Virus record (IMG/VR): IMGVR_UViG_3300010412_000041
Location: 1-36,715 of that record
Length of the DNA stretch: 36,715 bases
Reading direction: 5' to 3' (one strand)
Source: a virus
In this document: positions 11,896-36,715 of the stretch, in pieces
Position numbering within the stretch: position 1 is the first letter of the stretch
Layout: each line of letters begins with the position of its first letter
Made by a program: the position numbers and the translations under genes
Notes under the pieces: model-generated
What the model saw: the letters and a program-made list of their open reading frames with translations, nothing else
Told to the model about the DNA's origin: nothing
The model's database searches: none

Positions 11896-12179
11896 GTGAA
11901 GAAGCAACAGTTCAGGTTCAGCTTTTGGACAAGCCAAGAAAAGTTGGAAAAGAAATTTCAGAAATTGCTGAAGGCTTGAAGGAAATAATCCTTGATGTTC
12001 GGGCTGGAAAGAAGATGGAAGTGGTTTCTGAAAATCTGATGAATGTGATGACCATGATTCAGGGATGGGAAATGTTGGATGATGAAGCAAAGCATGCATC
12101 AAATATCAAATCTTTTGCTTATTTGGCAGAATGCCTTGGTGAGGCTTTCACTCAAGATGTTGTCAAAGTCACTGAATAG
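11892..12179 (+). CDS. Hypothetical protein in lysis region (95 aa)
   Basis: The ATG overlaps the upstream stop and is preceded by GAAAGGGGAAAAACA. The product is a soluble, mainly helical acidic protein (VGKEISEIAEGLKEIILDVRAGKKMEVVSENLMNVM). No family recognised and no membrane segment. Its end overlaps the start of the lipoprotein gene by 23 bases. Because it is embedded between a membrane protein and a lipoprotein it may be a regulator of lysis timing, but nothing in the sequence shows this. Confidence 0.7.
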   Translation: MSEEATVQVQLLDKPRKVGKEISEIAEGLKEIILDVRAGKKMEVVSENLMNVMTMIQGWEMLDDEAKHASNIKSFAYLAECLGEAFTQDVVKVTE

Positions 12180-12963
12180 TTTTTTTCAATCAATGGTGGT
12201 TGTTGTTGTTGCTTCAACCACCATTGGTTGTTCAATGCTTTTCAAGCAATATCCAGACATATCAGCTGAAAAATATTACATGCATGATATGAGAATGGAG
12301 ATCAATGGAAAGGTGTTCAATGGTGTTGCAGTTCCACCAAAGTCTGAATCATATGAAATCAAGATCTTTCCAGCTGATGAAAGGATTGACAGACTGACTT
12401 TCACAAGCTGTGGAAGATATGATCAGTTTGACAAAGCTGTCACAGTCAAAGGTCATTTGTTTTGGAAGAAGAAGGATGAGTTCTTTAAATATTCATATAA
12501 GCCTTCACCAAAGGTTGAACTCAACAGAACTTGCAATATGAAGATTGGTGCTTTTGAATCCAAGAAGAAGAGAATGTCCTATGGACTGATTGTCTTCTCT
12601 GATGTGAGGGAAAATGTCAGGCTTTCTTCTGAAGTTGTGTGCAATGGTGAAGAAGAGATCTTTGCGTTTGGGAAATCAGCTTGTCAATCAGCACCTGGAT
12701 TGATGCAAAGGATTGAATTCAAAACACCTGTCTTCACTCCAAAGACAAACCAGAAGCCTGAATGTTTGGCTTTGATGACTGAAGATCTGAAGCCATATGA
12801 TCACAATTCAGCACAGAAGGTGTTTTTCTATAAGATGCCAGTTGGAGATTGTACCTGGATTTTCACAGCACAAGAGAAGTCTTTGAATGGAAACAGGATG
12901 CGCCATGATCACACATCTTTTGGCTTTGAAGATGTGCCGCCACCAGAGGAAGTGACAAAATGA
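12157..12963 (+). CDS. Lipoprotein in lysis cassette (268 aa)
   Basis: I choose ATG 12157 because it gives a full lipoprotein signal: MLSKSLNSFFQS, a hydrophobic run VVVVVAS and the lipobox TIGC with Cys25 as the lipidated residue. Threonine at -3 is tolerated but not ideal. An in-frame ATG at 12079 would overlap the upstream gene by 101 bases. The mature protein is beta-rich with several cysteines (FTSCGRYDQF, NRTCNMKIG, SEVVCNGEE, KSACQS, KPECLA, VGDCTW), suggesting disulfides in the periplasm. The length is far above Rz1-type spanins. The stop overlaps the next gene (ATGA). It may be an outer-membrane lysis or exclusion factor (inference). Confidence 0.7.
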   Translation: MLSKSLNSFFQSMVVVVVASTTIGCSMLFKQYPDISAEKYYMHDMRMEINGKVFNGVAVPPKSESYEIKIFPADERIDRLTFTSCGRYDQFDKAVTVKGHLFWKKKDEFFKYSYKPSPKVELNRTCNMKIGAFESKKKRMSYGLIVFSDVRENVRLSSEVVCNGEEEIFAFGKSACQSAPGLMQRIEFKTPVFTPKTNQKPECLALMTEDLKPYDHNSAQKVFFYKMPVGDCTWIFTAQEKSLNGNRMRHDHTSFGFEDVPPPEEVTK

Positions 12964-13199
12964 TTGCTTTCATTCTTCAATTGCTTGTTCCACCTTTGCT
13001 TGGTCTGTCACTTAGATGGGTTGAATCTTATTTCAACAGAAAAGGTGCTGAATTTGAAGACTGGAAATTTCTTGTCAAATTCACAGAAACAATGAGAAAA
13101 AGGCATCTTCTCCATGCATCATATCAGCTTGATGTTGAAAGACAGGCACAAGATGGTGACAATTGGTGGAGTGAACAAGAGTCAAAGGAACAGAAATGA
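12960..13199 (+). CDS. Small inner-membrane protein in lysis cassette (79 aa)
   Basis: The ATG overlaps the stop of the lipoprotein gene. An N-terminal hydrophobic span (IAFILQLLVPPLLGLSL) is followed by a charged helix (RWVESYFNRKGAEFEDWKFLVKFTETMRKRHLLHASYQLDVERQ). That is the outline of an i-spanin, which would pair with the lipoprotein encoded just upstream, or of a small holin. It overlaps the amidase gene by four bases. The family itself is not recognised. Confidence 0.6.
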   Translation: MIAFILQLLVPPLLGLSLRWVESYFNRKGAEFEDWKFLVKFTETMRKRHLLHASYQLDVERQAQDGDNWWSEQESKEQK

Positions 13200-13606
13200 A
13201 CAGGCCAAAGAAAGTGATCTTCCATTGCTACTATACCCCAGACACAGTTCAATCAAAATTTTCAGTTGAAGATGTCAGAAAGTGGCACCTTGAAAGAGGC
13301 TTCAATGACGTTGGATATCATTGGCTAATAAATAGGGAAGGGTTGATTGAAAAAGGAAGAGAAGAAAATCAAATTGGAGCCCATACCAAAGGCCAGAATA
13401 CAGATTCAATTGGTATTGCATATGAGGGAACAAACTTTCCTTCAGCTGAACAGTGGTTGTCTGTGATATATTTATATAGGAAAATCCATTCAACACATGG
13501 ACTTGTTTGGTCTGATTGGTTTGGACATTGTGAATTTGCAAACAAAGACTGTCCTGGATTTGATCCAGATGTTTTGAGAAGCATATTGAGAACTGTTCAG
13601 CTGTAG
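13196..13606 (+). CDS. Endolysin: N-acetylmuramoyl-L-alanine amidase, T7-lysozyme-like (136 aa)
   Basis: A zinc amidase of the Amidase_2/PGRP fold that cleaves the bond between N-acetylmuramic acid and L-alanine of peptidoglycan. Visible landmarks align with T7 lysozyme: IFHCYYT (His10, first zinc ligand), VRKWHLERGFNDVGYHWLINREG (Tyr41), IGAHTKGQNTDSIGI, GHCEFANKDCPGFD (His111 and Cys119, remaining ligands; Lys117 in the position of T7 Lys128). It lacks a signal peptide, so it depends on a holin for release. The family is usually ~150 residues, so this is full length and without a binding domain. ATG overlaps the previous stop. Confidence 0.92.
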   Translation: MNRPKKVIFHCYYTPDTVQSKFSVEDVRKWHLERGFNDVGYHWLINREGLIEKGREENQIGAHTKGQNTDSIGIAYEGTNFPSAEQWLSVIYLYRKIHSTHGLVWSDWFGHCEFANKDCPGFDPDVLRSILRTVQL

Positions 13607-16704: not shown

Positions 16705-16989
16705 TTACTTGTCAGTCAGCTTGAAGTTTTTCACAATCCATTTGCTGACATTTTCACATACAAGCTCTTGAACATCGAGTGAAGTCATTGTTTGATTGAG
16801 CCCTGTGTTTTGCCAGATTGCATGAATGATTTCATGAAGAAAGGTTTGAAACATTTCTTCTTTGCTCAATGTCTTGTCCAGAAGAATTTCTTGTTTCTTC
16901 AAATGGTATAGACCAACAAAATCTTGATTTGAAAGGTCAACTTTCTTGACTGTGACCTTGGTCCCAAAGACATCATATTTTCTTTTCAT
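16705..16989 (-). CDS. Small HEIIH zinc metallopeptidase-like protein (94 aa)
   Basis: Residues 52-56 are HEIIH in TFLHEIIHAIWQ, the zincin core, followed by acidic residues in DVQELVCENV that could supply the third ligand. The first 35 residues are strands (KYDVFGTKVTVKKVDLSNQDFVGLYHLKKQEILLD), the outline of small phage ImmA/SprT-style zincins. Probably cytoplasmic, since no signal peptide is present. Substrate unknown. Its stop abuts the stop of the glycine-rich gene (convergent, no spacer), and its start overlaps the metallophosphatase stop by four bases, so it is the last gene of the leftward operon. Confidence 0.75.
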   Translation of the reverse strand: MKRKYDVFGTKVTVKKVDLSNQDFVGLYHLKKQEILLDKTLSKEEMFQTFLHEIIHAIWQNTGLNQTMTSLDVQELVCENVSKWIVKNFKLTDK

Positions 16990-20119: not shown

Positions 20120-20151
20120 TTTTGATTTGTTGGTGAGAAAGGGGAATGAAG

Positions 20152-21021
20152 ATGAAAGATCTTGAAAAGAAAATGGATGAAGTGGATAGAAAGAAGCTTG
20201 AAAAGTGCAACAAAGAATTCTTTGTTCCAGATCAAGCTGATCACATTGTTGTGTGTGTCTCTGGTGGAAAAGATTCAGCCTGTTTGATGGAATATGCATT
20301 GAGAAAATTCCCAAAGGAAAAGCTTCATTTTGTCCATGCAATGATTGACATTGACTGGACTGTCACTAAAGAAGTCTGTGAACAACAGGCTGAACACTTT
20401 GGTGTGAAGATGAATTATGTTCAAGCAATCAGCAAAGCTGGAAAAGCAATTGGATTTCTTGATGTGTTGACCAGAAGTAGAATTGACAGAAAAACTGGTG
20501 AAGCAAAAGAATATCAATTTCCAGACAATTCAAATAGATGGTGTACTTCAACTTTGAAGACTGGTCCTTTGGACAAATTCGCAAGAAAGTTCAAAGGAAA
20601 TGTTTTGATTTTGATTGGTGAAAGGGCTGAAGAATCCAGCAAAAGAGCAAAGCTTGAAATGTGGCGACCACAACCAAAGATGATGACAGCTTCAAGAAAT
20701 GTGGTGAAGTACAGTCCAATTCTGTACTATACACAAAGCAAAGTCTGGCAAATCATCAATGACCAAAACATTCCAAAGCACCCTTGCTATAGTTGGGGCG
20801 TTTCAAGGGCTTCTTGTGCAATTTGCATCTTCTCAAGCAACAAAGAAATCAAAATTGCAGCTGAGAAAGAGCCTGAATTAGTCAGAAAATATGTTGAGGC
20901 TGAGAAGAAGATTTCACACACATTCAGGTATAGAAAGACAAAGAAAGATGGAGAGATCAAAGAAACTGTTGAAGATATTTTGAACGGTTCAGACAAACTT
21001 CCAAAGAAAAATGAAGCCTAA
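20152..21021 (+). CDS. PAPS-reductase-like PP-loop enzyme (289 aa)
   Basis: SGGKDS (37-42) in HIVVCVSGGKDSACLME is the PP-loop of the PAPS reductase / adenine nucleotide alpha hydrolase family. Later landmarks are NRWCTSTLKTGPLDKF, GERAEESSKRAKL and HPCYSWGVSRASCAICIF, whose clustered cysteines may hold an iron-sulfur cluster as in DndC-type members. I prefer ATG 20152 over 20146, which sits one base from GGGG. Phage members are usually of unknown role; DNA or tRNA sulfur chemistry and nucleotide modification are options, but no dnd or other sulfur genes are present. First gene of the rightward operon. Confidence 0.85.
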   Translation: MKDLEKKMDEVDRKKLEKCNKEFFVPDQADHIVVCVSGGKDSACLMEYALRKFPKEKLHFVHAMIDIDWTVTKEVCEQQAEHFGVKMNYVQAISKAGKAIGFLDVLTRSRIDRKTGEAKEYQFPDNSNRWCTSTLKTGPLDKFARKFKGNVLILIGERAEESSKRAKLEMWRPQPKMMTASRNVVKYSPILYYTQSKVWQIINDQNIPKHPCYSWGVSRASCAICIFSSNKEIKIAAEKEPELVRKYVEAEKKISHTFRYRKTKKDGEIKETVEDILNGSDKLPKKNEA

Positions 21022-21040
21022 TATAGAAAGGGGAATGAAA

Positions 21041-21349
21041 ATGAAAAGTGCAATCTTGAAAGAAACAAAGCCGTCAAAGGGATATTCAGTCAATGATATG
21101 AGGCTGAAGAAATATCTTGAACTTAAAGAAGCTGAAAAGGAAATCAAGAAAGAGCTTGAACAATTGAAGGTGGAGATTGAACACTCTGGAAGTCACACAA
21201 CAAAACACTTCGTTGTGACAGTGACTCCACAGACAAGAACATATGCTCCAGGGCTTGAGAAGTTAAGACAACTCTATCCAGATATTGACAAGCACACAAA
21301 TGAAGTAACTTTCAACAAAATTTCAATTTCAAAGAAAGGTGGTGAGTGA
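21041..21349 (+). CDS. Hypothetical charged helical protein (102 aa)
   Basis: ATG 21041 lies seven bases after AAAGGGG; upstream in-frame ATGs are too close to it or inside the previous gene's end. Residues ~18-48 form a Lys/Glu helix (DMRLKKYLELKEAEKEIKKELEQLKVEIEHSG) likely to be a coiled coil, followed by strands (KHFVVTVTPQTRTYAPG). Not recognised. It is packed in the rightward operon, sharing one base with the next start (TGATG). Confidence 0.72.
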   Translation: MKSAILKETKPSKGYSVNDMRLKKYLELKEAEKEIKKELEQLKVEIEHSGSHTTKHFVVTVTPQTRTYAPGLEKLRQLYPDIDKHTNEVTFNKISISKKGGE

Positions 21350-21603
21350 TGAAGAAAATTGAATTCAAATCTTGTGAACATGGAATTGATATTGAAATTG
21401 AAAGAAGAAATTCTGATGGTGGTGATCCGATGGGAATTTCTGAAGAAGGATTTCAAAGACTGTTTAATGAAATGAAAAATGGAATGTTTGAGGCTGTCAC
21501 CAGCGCATTAGATCAAGGAATATTGCCGAGACATATTAGGCTTGAAGGAATTTTCACAGTCAATGGAATATATGAACCAAGAAAGAAGGGTGGTGAAGAG
21601 TGA
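21349..21603 (+). CDS. Hypothetical protein (84 aa)
   Basis: ATG 21349 follows AAAGGTGGTGAGTG; a GTG three bases earlier is in frame. The short protein starts KKIEFKSCEHGIDIEIERRNSDGGDPMG and has an amphipathic helix in the middle (EEGFQRLFNEMKNGMFEAVTSALDQG). No family recognised. It overlaps the lipoprotein gene by four bases (GTGA), so expression is linked with the metalloprotease-like lipoprotein. Confidence 0.7.
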   Translation: MKKIEFKSCEHGIDIEIERRNSDGGDPMGISEEGFQRLFNEMKNGMFEAVTSALDQGILPRHIRLEGIFTVNGIYEPRKKGGEE

Positions 21604-22196
21604 AATTTCATATGAAAGAAATCACACTATTTCTGTCATTTGCACTTGCTGGATGCATTCCAGACATTGGATTCAAAAGGGCTGAAAATTTTGTTGATCC
21701 ACAGTTCCAGCCATATGTCCATGCATTCCAATTGAACTACAAAGGTGAATGGCCACCTGGACTTGAAGTTCAGTTTGGACAACCAGAAGATCATGAAAAA
21801 ACACTTGGTGATTGTCACACTGAATCTGTTAATGGAAAGGCTTTCCAATACACAATCAGGATTGATGAGAGTGATTGGGATTCTGTCAGGATGTACCAGA
21901 GAGAAGCCTTGATCATGCATGAACTTGGTCACTGTGTCCTGTTGAGGGAACACTTGAACACAAATCAGACAATTCAGGTTGATGACAAAGACTTTGAATG
22001 TCCTGTCAGCTGGATGACAAAATCAATCAGATCTGAAGATGTTTATTTGAATTGCAGATCAAAATTGTATATTGAATTCTTTGGATATCAAGATGAATCT
22101 GAAATCTTCTTTCCAAACTACAAACCAAGAAGACCTTCATCAATATCTGGAATTTTCACAGAACTTCTTGAAACATTGAAAGGATTTTTCCAATGA
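21600..22196 (+). CDS. Lipoprotein zinc metallopeptidase-like protein (198 aa)
   Basis: GTG start overlapping the upstream stop. Residues 1-19 form a lipoprotein signal: KFHMKE, hydrophobic ITLFLSFA and lipobox LAGC with Cys19. The mature part has IMHELGHCVLLREH: His107, Glu108, His111 of the HExxH zincin core, with His118 close to but one residue beyond the metzincin third-ligand spacing. Several cysteines (Cys72, Cys112 and later) fit a periplasmic location. A phage early-type gene making an anchored envelope protease is unusual; host surface remodelling or superinfection exclusion are possibilities (inference). The C-terminus is amphipathic (FTELLETLKGFFQ). Confidence 0.75.
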   Translation: MKFHMKEITLFLSFALAGCIPDIGFKRAENFVDPQFQPYVHAFQLNYKGEWPPGLEVQFGQPEDHEKTLGDCHTESVNGKAFQYTIRIDESDWDSVRMYQREALIMHELGHCVLLREHLNTNQTIQVDDKDFECPVSWMTKSIRSEDVYLNCRSKLYIEFFGYQDESEIFFPNYKPRRPSSISGIFTELLETLKGFFQ

Positions 22197-22369
22197 AAAA
22201 CAAACTGAAATCAAATGTCCTATCTGTCAGAATTGATGACCAAACAAGAGACAGGCTTTCAAAGATGAAGGTTGATATTCCAGCCTTCATCAGAGGAATG
22301 CTTCAAGATGCAATCAAAGATCCAGTCTGTCCAGTGTGCAACAAACCAATTGAAAAGGAAAAGCCATGA
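22193..22369 (+). CDS. Ribbon-helix-helix mini-protein with CPVC knuckle (58 aa)
   Basis: A gene of only 59 codons, ATG overlapping the lipoprotein stop and its own stop overlapping the next ATG. Residues ~8-43 (NVLSVRIDDQTRDRLSKM, then DIPAFIRGMLQDAI) follow the strand-helix-helix plan of Arc/CopG-type DNA-binding proteins. The end, VCPVCNKPIEKEKP, contains one C-x2-C pair that could bind zinc in a dimer. The only transcription-factor-like protein seen in the genome; it could act on the dyads near 20061-20119 or 28445-28468 (inference). Confidence 0.72.
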   Translation: MKNKLKSNVLSVRIDDQTRDRLSKMKVDIPAFIRGMLQDAIKDPVCPVCNKPIEKEKP

Positions 22370-22899
22370 TCTCCAAAACACTTTCACTGATTCAAAAGAT
22401 TGAGCTTTCAAAAGCTGCGTCAAGAGAAGTGTATGTCATGAAGTTCAAAGTTGGTTTATCTGACATTGCATTCTTGACTGAGAGAATCAGAAACAAAAGG
22501 AAAAGCATTGTGACATTTGAATGGTCTTCAGATGTGAGGGAAGCAAGACTCTTTATCCAAAGGCAGATCACTGGGCCAATGATTGATTTGAGAGAAGAAA
22601 TCATTTGTGCAAATTTGTTTGATGATGTTGAATTTGTTGAGCTTGATTTCTATCTCAGAACAGCTTGGATGATTGATCTCCAAACAGGTGAAATTGTCAA
22701 AACAAAATGCTTCCAAGAAGATCTTGAAAACTCAAAGACCTTCTTCTTTTCATCAAAGGAAGATGCAATTCAACACCAAATCAATGACACCAAGAAGAGC
22801 ATTGAATTCTATCAACAGGCCAAGAACAAAGCTCAAGGGAAGATTGATGAGTTTCAAAGAAAGCTTGAAGCCTTAGTCAAGGACTCGACAAAGAAATGA
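22366..22899 (+). CDS. Hypothetical protein with C-terminal coiled coil (177 aa)
   Basis: ATG overlaps the preceding stop. The N-terminal ~125 residues look alpha/beta (VYVMKFKVGLSDIAFLTERIRNKRKSIVTFEWSSDVREARLFIQ); residues ~133-177 are a Lys/Gln/Glu-rich helix. Not recognised; absence of signal or catalytic motifs noted. Last gene of the rightward operon; its 3' end overlaps the convergent leftward gene by 27 bases, with no terminator between. Confidence 0.72.
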   Translation: MISKTLSLIQKIELSKAASREVYVMKFKVGLSDIAFLTERIRNKRKSIVTFEWSSDVREARLFIQRQITGPMIDLREEIICANLFDDVEFVELDFYLRTAWMIDLQTGEIVKTKCFQEDLENSKTFFFSSKEDAIQHQINDTKKSIEFYQQAKNKAQGKIDEFQRKLEALVKDSTKK

Positions 22900-28848: not shown

Positions 28849-30009
28849 GTGCTTTTCAAGTGTTCTCACACTGGCCTAGTTGATATTTCAACACTCAAAC
28901 CAAATCCAAAGAATCCAAACAAGCATCCAGCTAAACAGATCCAACTCCTTTCCAAGATCATTCAATATCAAGGACAAAGATCTCCAATTGTTGTCTCAAA
29001 GAAATCTGGATTCATTGTCAAAGGTCATGCAAGACTTGAAGCAATCAAAGCTCTTGGATGGACAAAGGTCGCCGTTGACTTCCAAGACTATGATGATTCA
29101 GCACAAGAATTCGCTGACCTTGTTGCTGACAACAAAATTGCAGAACTGGCTGACCATGACGATGCCTTCATGATTCAAACAATTCAAGATGACTTTCCAA
29201 ACATTGATCTAGAACTTCTTGGTCTTGATGACTTTGAACTTCCACAATCACCAGATGAAGCCAAAGAAGAGATTGAAGATGATGTGCCTGAACAGGTGGA
29301 CACAAGATGTAAAGAAGGTGATCTGTGGATCTTAGGCAATCACAGACTTCTTTGTGGGGATGCCACTAATATTCAGCACGTTGAAAGGCTTATGAACGGT
29401 GAGAAGGCTGACATGGTGTTTACTGATCCGCCTTATGGGATAAATATTGGAAAGCAATCAATGGGTAAAGGTGGCGGTGTTGCAAAAAAAATAGACTATG
29501 GCGTTAATGATTGGGATTCAGAAATACCTTATGAGGCAATAGGAATTGCTCAAACAATGGCTCCAATTACTGTTTTGTGGGGTGCTAATTATTACGCCGA
29601 AAAGTTAGAGCCCCAGAGTGGATGGATTGTTTGGGATAAAGACAATGGCAAAACTGATTTTGCCGATGCGGAGTTAGCCTGGACCAACAAGAAATGCCCA
29701 GTGCGCATCTTTAAGTGGAAGTGGATGGGCATGATTCAGGAAGACATGAAAAACAAAGAGAAAAGAGTCCACCCGACACAAAAGCCTATAGCTTTATCCG
29801 AATGGTGCTTTGCAAACTATGGCAAGCCAAAATCAGTCCTAGATTTATTCGGCGGCTCAGGCTCAACTCTAATCGCTTGCGAAAAGACAGACCGAAAATG
29901 CTTCATGATGGAAATTGATCCACACTATTGCGATGTTATACTATCCAGATGGGAAAACTATTCAGGCAAGAAAGCTGAATTGCAAGAAAACAAGGACCAA
30001 ACACCATGA
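28849..30009 (+). CDS. ParB-N / DNA methyltransferase fusion (386 aa)
   Basis: GTG start seven bases after AGGGG. Residues ~8-100 are a ParB/Srx-type domain (LVDISTLKPNPKNPNKHP, GFIVKGHARLEAIKALGW). The methyltransferase follows: GDLWILGNHRLLCGDA, DPPYG (193-197) and DLFGGSGST (332-340), i.e. catalytic motif before AdoMet motif, as in beta-class N6-adenine/N4-cytosine enzymes. Such enzymes modify DNA, probably against host restriction. Composition changes at the domain border (~29335): about 4 CpG in the first ~490 bases, about 18 in the next ~600, so the gene looks like a recombinant. Stop overlaps the terminase gene. Confidence 0.9.
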   Translation: MLFKCSHTGLVDISTLKPNPKNPNKHPAKQIQLLSKIIQYQGQRSPIVVSKKSGFIVKGHARLEAIKALGWTKVAVDFQDYDDSAQEFADLVADNKIAELADHDDAFMIQTIQDDFPNIDLELLGLDDFELPQSPDEAKEEIEDDVPEQVDTRCKEGDLWILGNHRLLCGDATNIQHVERLMNGEKADMVFTDPPYGINIGKQSMGKGGGVAKKIDYGVNDWDSEIPYEAIGIAQTMAPITVLWGANYYAEKLEPQSGWIVWDKDNGKTDFADAELAWTNKKCPVRIFKWKWMGMIQEDMKNKEKRVHPTQKPIALSEWCFANYGKPKSVLDLFGGSGSTLIACEKTDRKCFMMEIDPHYCDVILSRWENYSGKKAELQENKDQTP

Positions 30010-36425: not shown

Positions 36426-36715
36426 ATGGCCTTTTTAGGTTCTAGTATATTAGCATCAGACAGTGGTTCACCTTTCTTCAGTGAAGTGAAGACGGTGACA
36501 ACACCTGGTGTGAAGCAAACCTTGCTGACATATACTGTTCAGGTGAATGAACAACTTGCCTTGAGTCAGATTTATTTGACGTGCAGACAGTCTGGATTTT
36601 TCGAATTGAAAAGTGATGGTGATCTGATTGCGAGTGGAAGAACTGGACCTTCATCTTTGAATGTGAATTTTTCGTTTTTTCCATTCAGAAATATAGATTC
36701 TGGAAAAGTTCTTGT
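36426..36715 (+). CDS. Small virion protein, 5' part of the gene split by the window ends
   Basis: Begins AFLGSSILASDSGSPFFSEVKTVTTPGVKQTLLTYTVQVNEQLALSQIYLTCRQSG and runs off the end. The remainder is at 1-217. In the closed circle the gene is 363 bases and codes for 120 residues. The QTLLTYTV...LSQIYL section resembles the VPSGK-type products at 1439 and 2795. Confidence 0.8.
   Translation, partial: MAFLGSSILASDSGSPFFSEVKTVTTPGVKQTLLTYTVQVNEQLALSQIYLTCRQSGFFELKSDGDLIASGRTGPSSLNVNFSFFPFRNIDSGKVL
36572..36715. repeat. Terminal direct repeat, right copy
   Basis: Exact copy of bases 1-144 (see left copy). Confidence 0.95.

Follow-up and report, generated by a model that had tools for sequence, protein, structure and literature searches.

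The DNA analysed here (the window) is the whole of a 36,715 bp virus record from IMG/VR, IMGVR_UViG_3300010412_000041. It carries direct terminal repeats of 144 bp at positions 1–144 and 36572–36715 and is thus probably a complete tailed-phage genome; family searches identified a terminase, a portal protein, a major head protein, an amidase, an SSB, a Sak4-like protein and a D5-like primase. The gene described here encodes a predicted lipoprotein zinc peptidase (Table 1) and is the fourth in an operon of six, which encodes, in order, a PAPS-reductase-like protein, a coiled-coil protein, an 85-residue protein, the peptidase, an RHH-like protein and a 177-residue protein. The peptidase gene overlaps each of its neighbours by 4 bp, and the short protein encoded after it looks, from its sequence, like a ribbon-helix-helix protein with an added CxxC motif. 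The first-pass annotation of the window had assigned the gene to an early-type operon away from the lysis genes. The six overlapping genes do lie far from the probable lysis cassette (∼11.6–13.6 kb), whereas a promoter scan of the operon region gave no improvement over shuffled sequences and so lends nothing to the early timing.

Table 1. Features of the peptidase locus, in window coordinates.
Feature	Position	Strand	Basis
Six-gene overlapping operon	20146-22899	+	Gene coordinates; overlaps of 4-11 bp
Predicted lipoprotein zinc metallopeptidase gene, 198 aa, GTG start	21600-22196	+	ORF list; homologous family
Predicted signal peptide MKFHMKEITLFLSFALAG, residues 1-18	21600-21653	+	Hydrophobic N-terminus up to Cys, common to nearly all relatives
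Lipobox LAGC, residues 16-19, predicted lipidated Cys19	21645-21656	+	Lipobox Cys in 41/42 aligned relatives
Cys72 of G-x-C motif, predicted disulfide partner of Cys112	21813-21815	+	Co-occurrence with Cys112, 55/55 sequences
Zinc motif HELGHCVLLREH, residues 107-118, HExxH-x6-H; predicted ligands His107, His111 and third ligand His118, with Glu108	21918-21953	+	55/55 sequences
Met-turn-like CPVSWM, Cys134 to Met139	21999-22016	+	Met aligned in 41/42; lines up with the adamalysin-type Met-turn region
Cys152, predicted disulfide partner of Cys134	22053-22055	+	Pair co-occurrence

Three other loci in the window were noted in passing. A further predicted lipoprotein (VVVASTTIGC), assigned to no family, is encoded at 12193-12963 (+) within the ORF 12079-12963, between genes for small membrane proteins and the amidase gene at 13196-13606, that is, in the likely lysis cassette. 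Another small HExxH protein (94 residues, LHEIIHAIW, no signal peptide) is encoded at 16705-16989 (-); it has sub-threshold matches to M78/IrrE and SprT-like families and is probably a cytoplasmic zincin. At 28849-30009 (+) a DNA methyltransferase is fused to a ParB-like domain.

Before the GTG at 21600, at normal spacing, stands an AAGG that resembles a Shine-Dalgarno site, which the in-frame alternative ATG at 21612 lacks; with either start the signal peptide stays short and ends at Cys19. The N-terminus of the protein reads VKFHMKEITLFLSFALAGC. After its hydrophobic stretch, LAGC matches the Sec/SPII lipobox pattern [LVI][ASTVI][GAS]C, and there is no Asp at position +2 after Cys19. The coordinates, the length, the lipobox and the zinc motif were all as first annotated, and the lipobox and zinc motif recur in the relatives described below.

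Searches with the single sequence against the INPHARED phages and the PDB, together with a first IMG/VR scan, gave nothing useful. The family was opened by searching IMG/VR with a degenerate nucleotide pattern encoding MHELGHC-x-L and then extended by alignment-based scans, which placed the same architecture on ten other viral contigs with nine distinct sequences (L002, L007, L003, L004, L010, L016, L017, L078, L081 and L083; L003 and L004 are identical). The L002 contig has a second copy of the peptidase. One 55.5 kb viral contig encodes two divergent copies, L087:8767-9456 (-) and L088:10745-11179 (-). At its N-terminus L083 appears to have a type I signal peptide, and that of L003 is hydrophobic but shows no lipobox; the remaining viral copies have the lipobox. 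Among isolated-phage records no close homologue was found, and two uncultured-phage records hold a distant homologue annotated as ‘neutrophil collagenase’, without a signal peptide and with the motif HEMGHAALARPH; in one of them (L099:3752-4744; MW202601.1) this gives the identical 12-residue spacing.

Bacterial relatives comprise a Bdellovibrio plasmid protein, proteins from Saprospiraceae MAGs and one from a MAG labelled Epsilonproteobacteria by NCBI. One bacterial family, named Saprospiraceae in the NCBI titles, has these proteins in 77 of 150 genomes sampled, with up to five copies each; among genomes drawn from the phylum of the Saprospiraceae MAG they occur in nine of 198. A second phylum, that of the MAG labelled Epsilonproteobacteria, has them in 56 of the 144 genomes searched, where 42 matches with E < 1e-11 are followed by a weak tail; we suspect that this phylum is Bdellovibrionota, the likeness to the Bdellovibrio plasmid protein being among the grounds. 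That plasmid protein has kin in 33 of the 144 genomes sampled as the phylum of the L021 MAG (QNFX01000032.1), and the NCBI label of this MAG, Epsilonproteobacteria, may be wrong. A reading of the lipobox and zinc motif combination as an invention of phages is not borne out: the family is one of envelope lipoproteins in bacteria, carried by phages as well. No family in Pfam, NCBIfam or PHROGs covers the protein, and a literature search found no paper on these lipoproteins.

In a 42-row alignment Trp93, His107, Glu108, Leu109, Gly110, His111, Leu114 and His118 are invariant, and the lipobox Cys and Met139 are each present in 41 rows. His107, Glu108, His111 and His118, with the last at motif position 12, are conserved in every one of the 55 homologous sequences; the Saprospiraceae sequences were extracted with a pattern that requires the 12-residue spacing, which excluded none of the 27 loci kept from the family-level search, and the second-phylum sequences, extracted without it, have the spacing in ten of ten. 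Homologues that had lost the motif, which the first-pass annotation had named as one finding that would overturn it, are therefore absent from this set. By sequence, an S-x-M reminiscent of a Met-turn lies downstream of the third His in the relatives. In the Bacteroidota relatives L035 and L036 the motif reads HELAHDILNLDD, and Asp may stand for His as the third ligand, in parallel to Asp-type zincins. The window protein itself is divergent in the 42-row alignment, with a seven-residue loop insertion and a C-terminal extension; these would suit a binding protein that retains the zincin scaffold and has lost catalysis, but the conservation of all ligands and of the catalytic Glu in the 55 sequences makes a dead enzyme very improbable. 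A firm dN/dS was not obtained, as dS was saturated or undefined in both pairs tried.

The cysteines covary in pairs. Of the 55 sequences (uncorrected for relatedness), 53 have Cys72 together with Cys112 and two have neither, the loss being a single event in L016/L017. Cys134 and Cys152 are present or absent jointly in all sequences except L087 by script, an exception that arose because the pattern caught the wrong S-x-M; by eye, L087 has both cysteines. Paired presence and absence of this kind fits two disulfides and hence an oxidizing, extracytoplasmic site.

AlphaFold2 gave a pLDDT of 84 with ten sequences and, for the mature domain with 13 sequences, a pLDDT of 90.1 and a pTM of 0.84. The model is a small zincin-like domain in which a backing helix is followed by three clear strands, an active-site helix ending at Cys112, a hairpin and a C-terminal helix. 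Set against the five-stranded upper sheet of the metzincin clan, it has three clear strands, and its Foldseek similarity to metzincins is not significant. Against solved structures Foldseek returned nothing at E 0.001 (best E 0.18), the weak matches being BlaR1, MMP-12 (TM 0.46), the Colwellia lipoprotein 3o0y, selecase and SprT; predicted viral proteins gave better matches, to uncharacterized phage proteins (E 5e-6). Profile searches of the PDB placed adamalysin-type metzincins first (E 0.0015–0.004), with the Met-turn region aligned and one extra residue after HELGH. The metzincin consensus HExxHxxG/NxxH/D, with the third ligand at position 11, does not describe these proteins: their motif is one residue longer, with the His at position 12 throughout, and has no conserved Gly before the third ligand. 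The original remark that the ligand spacing is not exactly metzincin-like was thus right.

The family-wide lipobox, the covarying cysteine pairs, the invariant HExxH with its third His, the Met-turn-like Met and the confident model agree with the initial proposal of an exported, lipid-anchored zincin, an identity that we consider very probable. On the model, the protein would be a zincin closest to a small metzincin, with zinc binding predicted and clan membership unproven.

Several other families were considered and set aside. SprT-like and IrrE/M78 proteins, which are cytoplasmic families, gave weak matches only, as did flagellinolysin (E 0.08); the match to PrgH was due to chance, and weak matches to transposase PHROG 513 around the motif (best E 0.003) carry an uninformative name. 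PF18894 (PhageMetallopep) is the nearest named family, but the window protein scores 21.9 bits, below the gathering cut-off of 23.7; four relatives (L007, L012, L078 and one second-phylum protein) score above it at 25.2–30.1 bits, with matches that cover ∼30–55 of the 134 profile positions, at most positions ∼41–101. The igalysins (MEROPS M64, IgAse), a recognized exception within the metzincins, also have their third ligand at position 12, the extra residue being compensated by half a helix turn (PMC12237041), and share the zinc motif one residue over the classical metzincin length, a Met-turn and a C-terminal helix. Their motif is HExxHxxxGxxD, with Asp as the third ligand, in a catalytic domain of 313 residues, whereas here the ligand is His, Gly is not conserved and the domain is of ∼130 residues; the M64 motif does not describe the window protein.

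The classical metzincins (adamalysins and matrixins, M12/M10) give the best profile matches to solved structures and have in common with the window protein HExxH, a later third His, an S-x-M turn and a C-terminal helix, with MMP-12 in the Foldseek list. They differ in that the window protein has one more residue separating HExxH from the third His and a much smaller N-terminal part, and the structural match is not significant. Minimal zincins (selecase MJ1213 and the mini-zincin Acel_2062) resemble it in their small size and active-site helix, with weak profile and fold similarity to selecase; Acel_2062 has neither a Met-turn nor a signal peptide (PMC3890501), and selecase is a 110-residue chain, shorter than the window protein, and is not described as a lipoprotein. 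The window protein would be a variant of a phage-carried envelope metallopeptidase, with a lipoprotein signal of its own and a 12-residue motif ending in His.

The gene behaves as accessory cargo. The nearest capsid relatives of the window (two are 32 and 34 kb) do not carry it, and its phage carriers have little else in common with the window. Several genes are shared only by the L007 phage, at low identity (terminase 37%, amidase 32%, head protein 24% and portal 21%). In the tree L016/L017 adjoin Saprospiraceae, L078/L081 fall within second-phylum proteins and the window groups with L007, a grouping with support of 97/82 that should be treated with care as both branches are long. The scattered placement of the viral copies suggests several captures from bacteria and, with the differing neighbours and the absence from the capsid kin, marks the gene as cargo. 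Neighbourhoods differ among the viral carriers. Outside the window the peptidase gene lies beside structural genes, just upstream of the terminase or among DNA-metabolism genes, so an early position is not conserved. In L007 (3154-5420) amidoligase-like and class II glutamine amidotransferase-like genes, read by eye, lie just upstream of it, and the neighbour in L014 is, also by eye, a putative PD-(D/E)XK-like gene. In L016/L017 it is in the structural region, directly after a putative tail-region gene, as a virion or structural-module peptidase might be; a lipobox and signal peptide misfit a virion protein assembled in the cytoplasm and the gene is not generally beside structural genes, which leaves that role scarcely plausible.

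Shine-Dalgarno sites precede 24 of the 36 gene starts in the window, compared with a background of 9%. Bacteroidota genes usually lack such sites, and their strong use here speaks against a host from that phylum. Among the second-phylum genomes a search with the capsid protein gave a single weak match. Acidic residues directly after the lipobox Cys, which resemble the Bacteroidota surface-export signal, were found in 27 of the 31 Saprospiraceae copies scored and in three of nine viral copies. The gene might be moron cargo that benefits the host cell, as a surface protease for nutrient scavenging or competition: these lipoproteins are very common and often multi-copy in Saprospiraceae, where the acidic stretch prevails, and they are patchy in phages. 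Most viral copies lack the acidic stretch, however, and no integrase or repressor was noticed in the gene list of the window, which thus gives no sign of a long-lived carrier state; we regard service to the host cell as distinctly unlikely.

A phage-derived exported metalloprotease has been described before. Mtz of Listeria monocytogenes (LMRG_00713) is a prophage-derived secreted metzincin that raises sensitivity to phage lysis, is frequently encoded downstream of holin-lysin genes and is paired with the lipoprotein Tim (PMC8235301). Like Mtz, the window protein is a zincin from a phage-associated accessory gene, has an extended zinc motif and a Met-turn-like segment, and is predicted to be exported and to act outside the cytoplasm. 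Mtz has a type I signal peptide, the motif HExxHxxGxxH/D, a TIMP-like lipoprotein partner and a place near lysis genes in prophages of a Gram-positive host; the window peptidase, by contrast, is itself a lipoprotein. No TIMP-like family was found by Pfam or PHROGs among the window neighbours, and the TIMP likeness in Listeria was structural only. By analogy with Mtz, cleavage of envelope or cell-wall-associated proteins could help the holin, endolysin and spanin at lysis, and the place of the L078 gene just upstream of the terminase genes would suit such a role. The window gene is ∼8 kb from the amidase gene, though, in another operon, and Mtz differs in its signal peptide and its 11-residue motif, so a lysis helper seems to us unlikely.

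In superinfection exclusion proper, the peptidase would act soon after infection, cutting or shedding the receptor that the phage itself uses (a surface lipoprotein or an outer-membrane protein), as an enzymatic counterpart of the phage T5 lipoprotein Llp. To our knowledge, the known exclusion lipoproteins block rather than cut, and the neighbours and genome position vary among phages; both count against this account. The lipoprotein signal and an operon away from the lysis cassette are in its favour, and phages are already known to encode lipoproteins that act at the outer membrane (T5 work, PMC9586334). We consider exclusion in this strict sense rather doubtful. Operon position and lipoprotein anchoring make it a little more likely than help with lysis.

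The case for an envelope protease is good; that it is an active peptidase working on envelope proteins we infer. The best explanation as a whole, to which we give a probability of about 0.6, is that the gene encodes a bacterial envelope lipoprotein zinc endopeptidase of an unnamed metzincin-like family, captured by phages more than once, that remodels the envelope. After infection the host would export the protein through its Sec system, attach lipid at Cys19 and process it with its own lipoprotein machinery; in a Gram-negative host the absent Asp at +2 would direct it to the outer membrane. Two disulfides would stabilize the domain, His107, His111 and His118 would hold the zinc and Glu108 would activate a water molecule, so that envelope proteins are cleaved on the periplasmic (or surface) side. 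The likeliest use would be remodelling of the infected cell's envelope to the advantage of the phage, the entry of later phages being blocked by the cutting of surface or periplasmic proteins or, alternatively, the envelope being weakened ahead of lysis. Early action on a receptor or signalling protein, as first suggested, is one option among these versions. That remodelling benefits the phage at all we hold at even odds; no partner or neighbour gene is conserved across phages, so the benefit is a guess.

More broadly, and only tentatively, phages may repeatedly take a host lipoprotein peptidase of an undescribed metzincin family (HExxH-x6-H) as an anchored enzyme that cuts host envelope proteins in the course of infection, which would make for exclusion or envelope takeover by enzymatic means and not by blocking. 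Most phage envelope effectors known to us block, bind or degrade the cell wall. A membrane-anchored protease would, if this is true, be an unusual phage weapon, and the homologues assembled here offer ready material for asking what function these widespread lipoproteins have and for what reason they are carried by phages.
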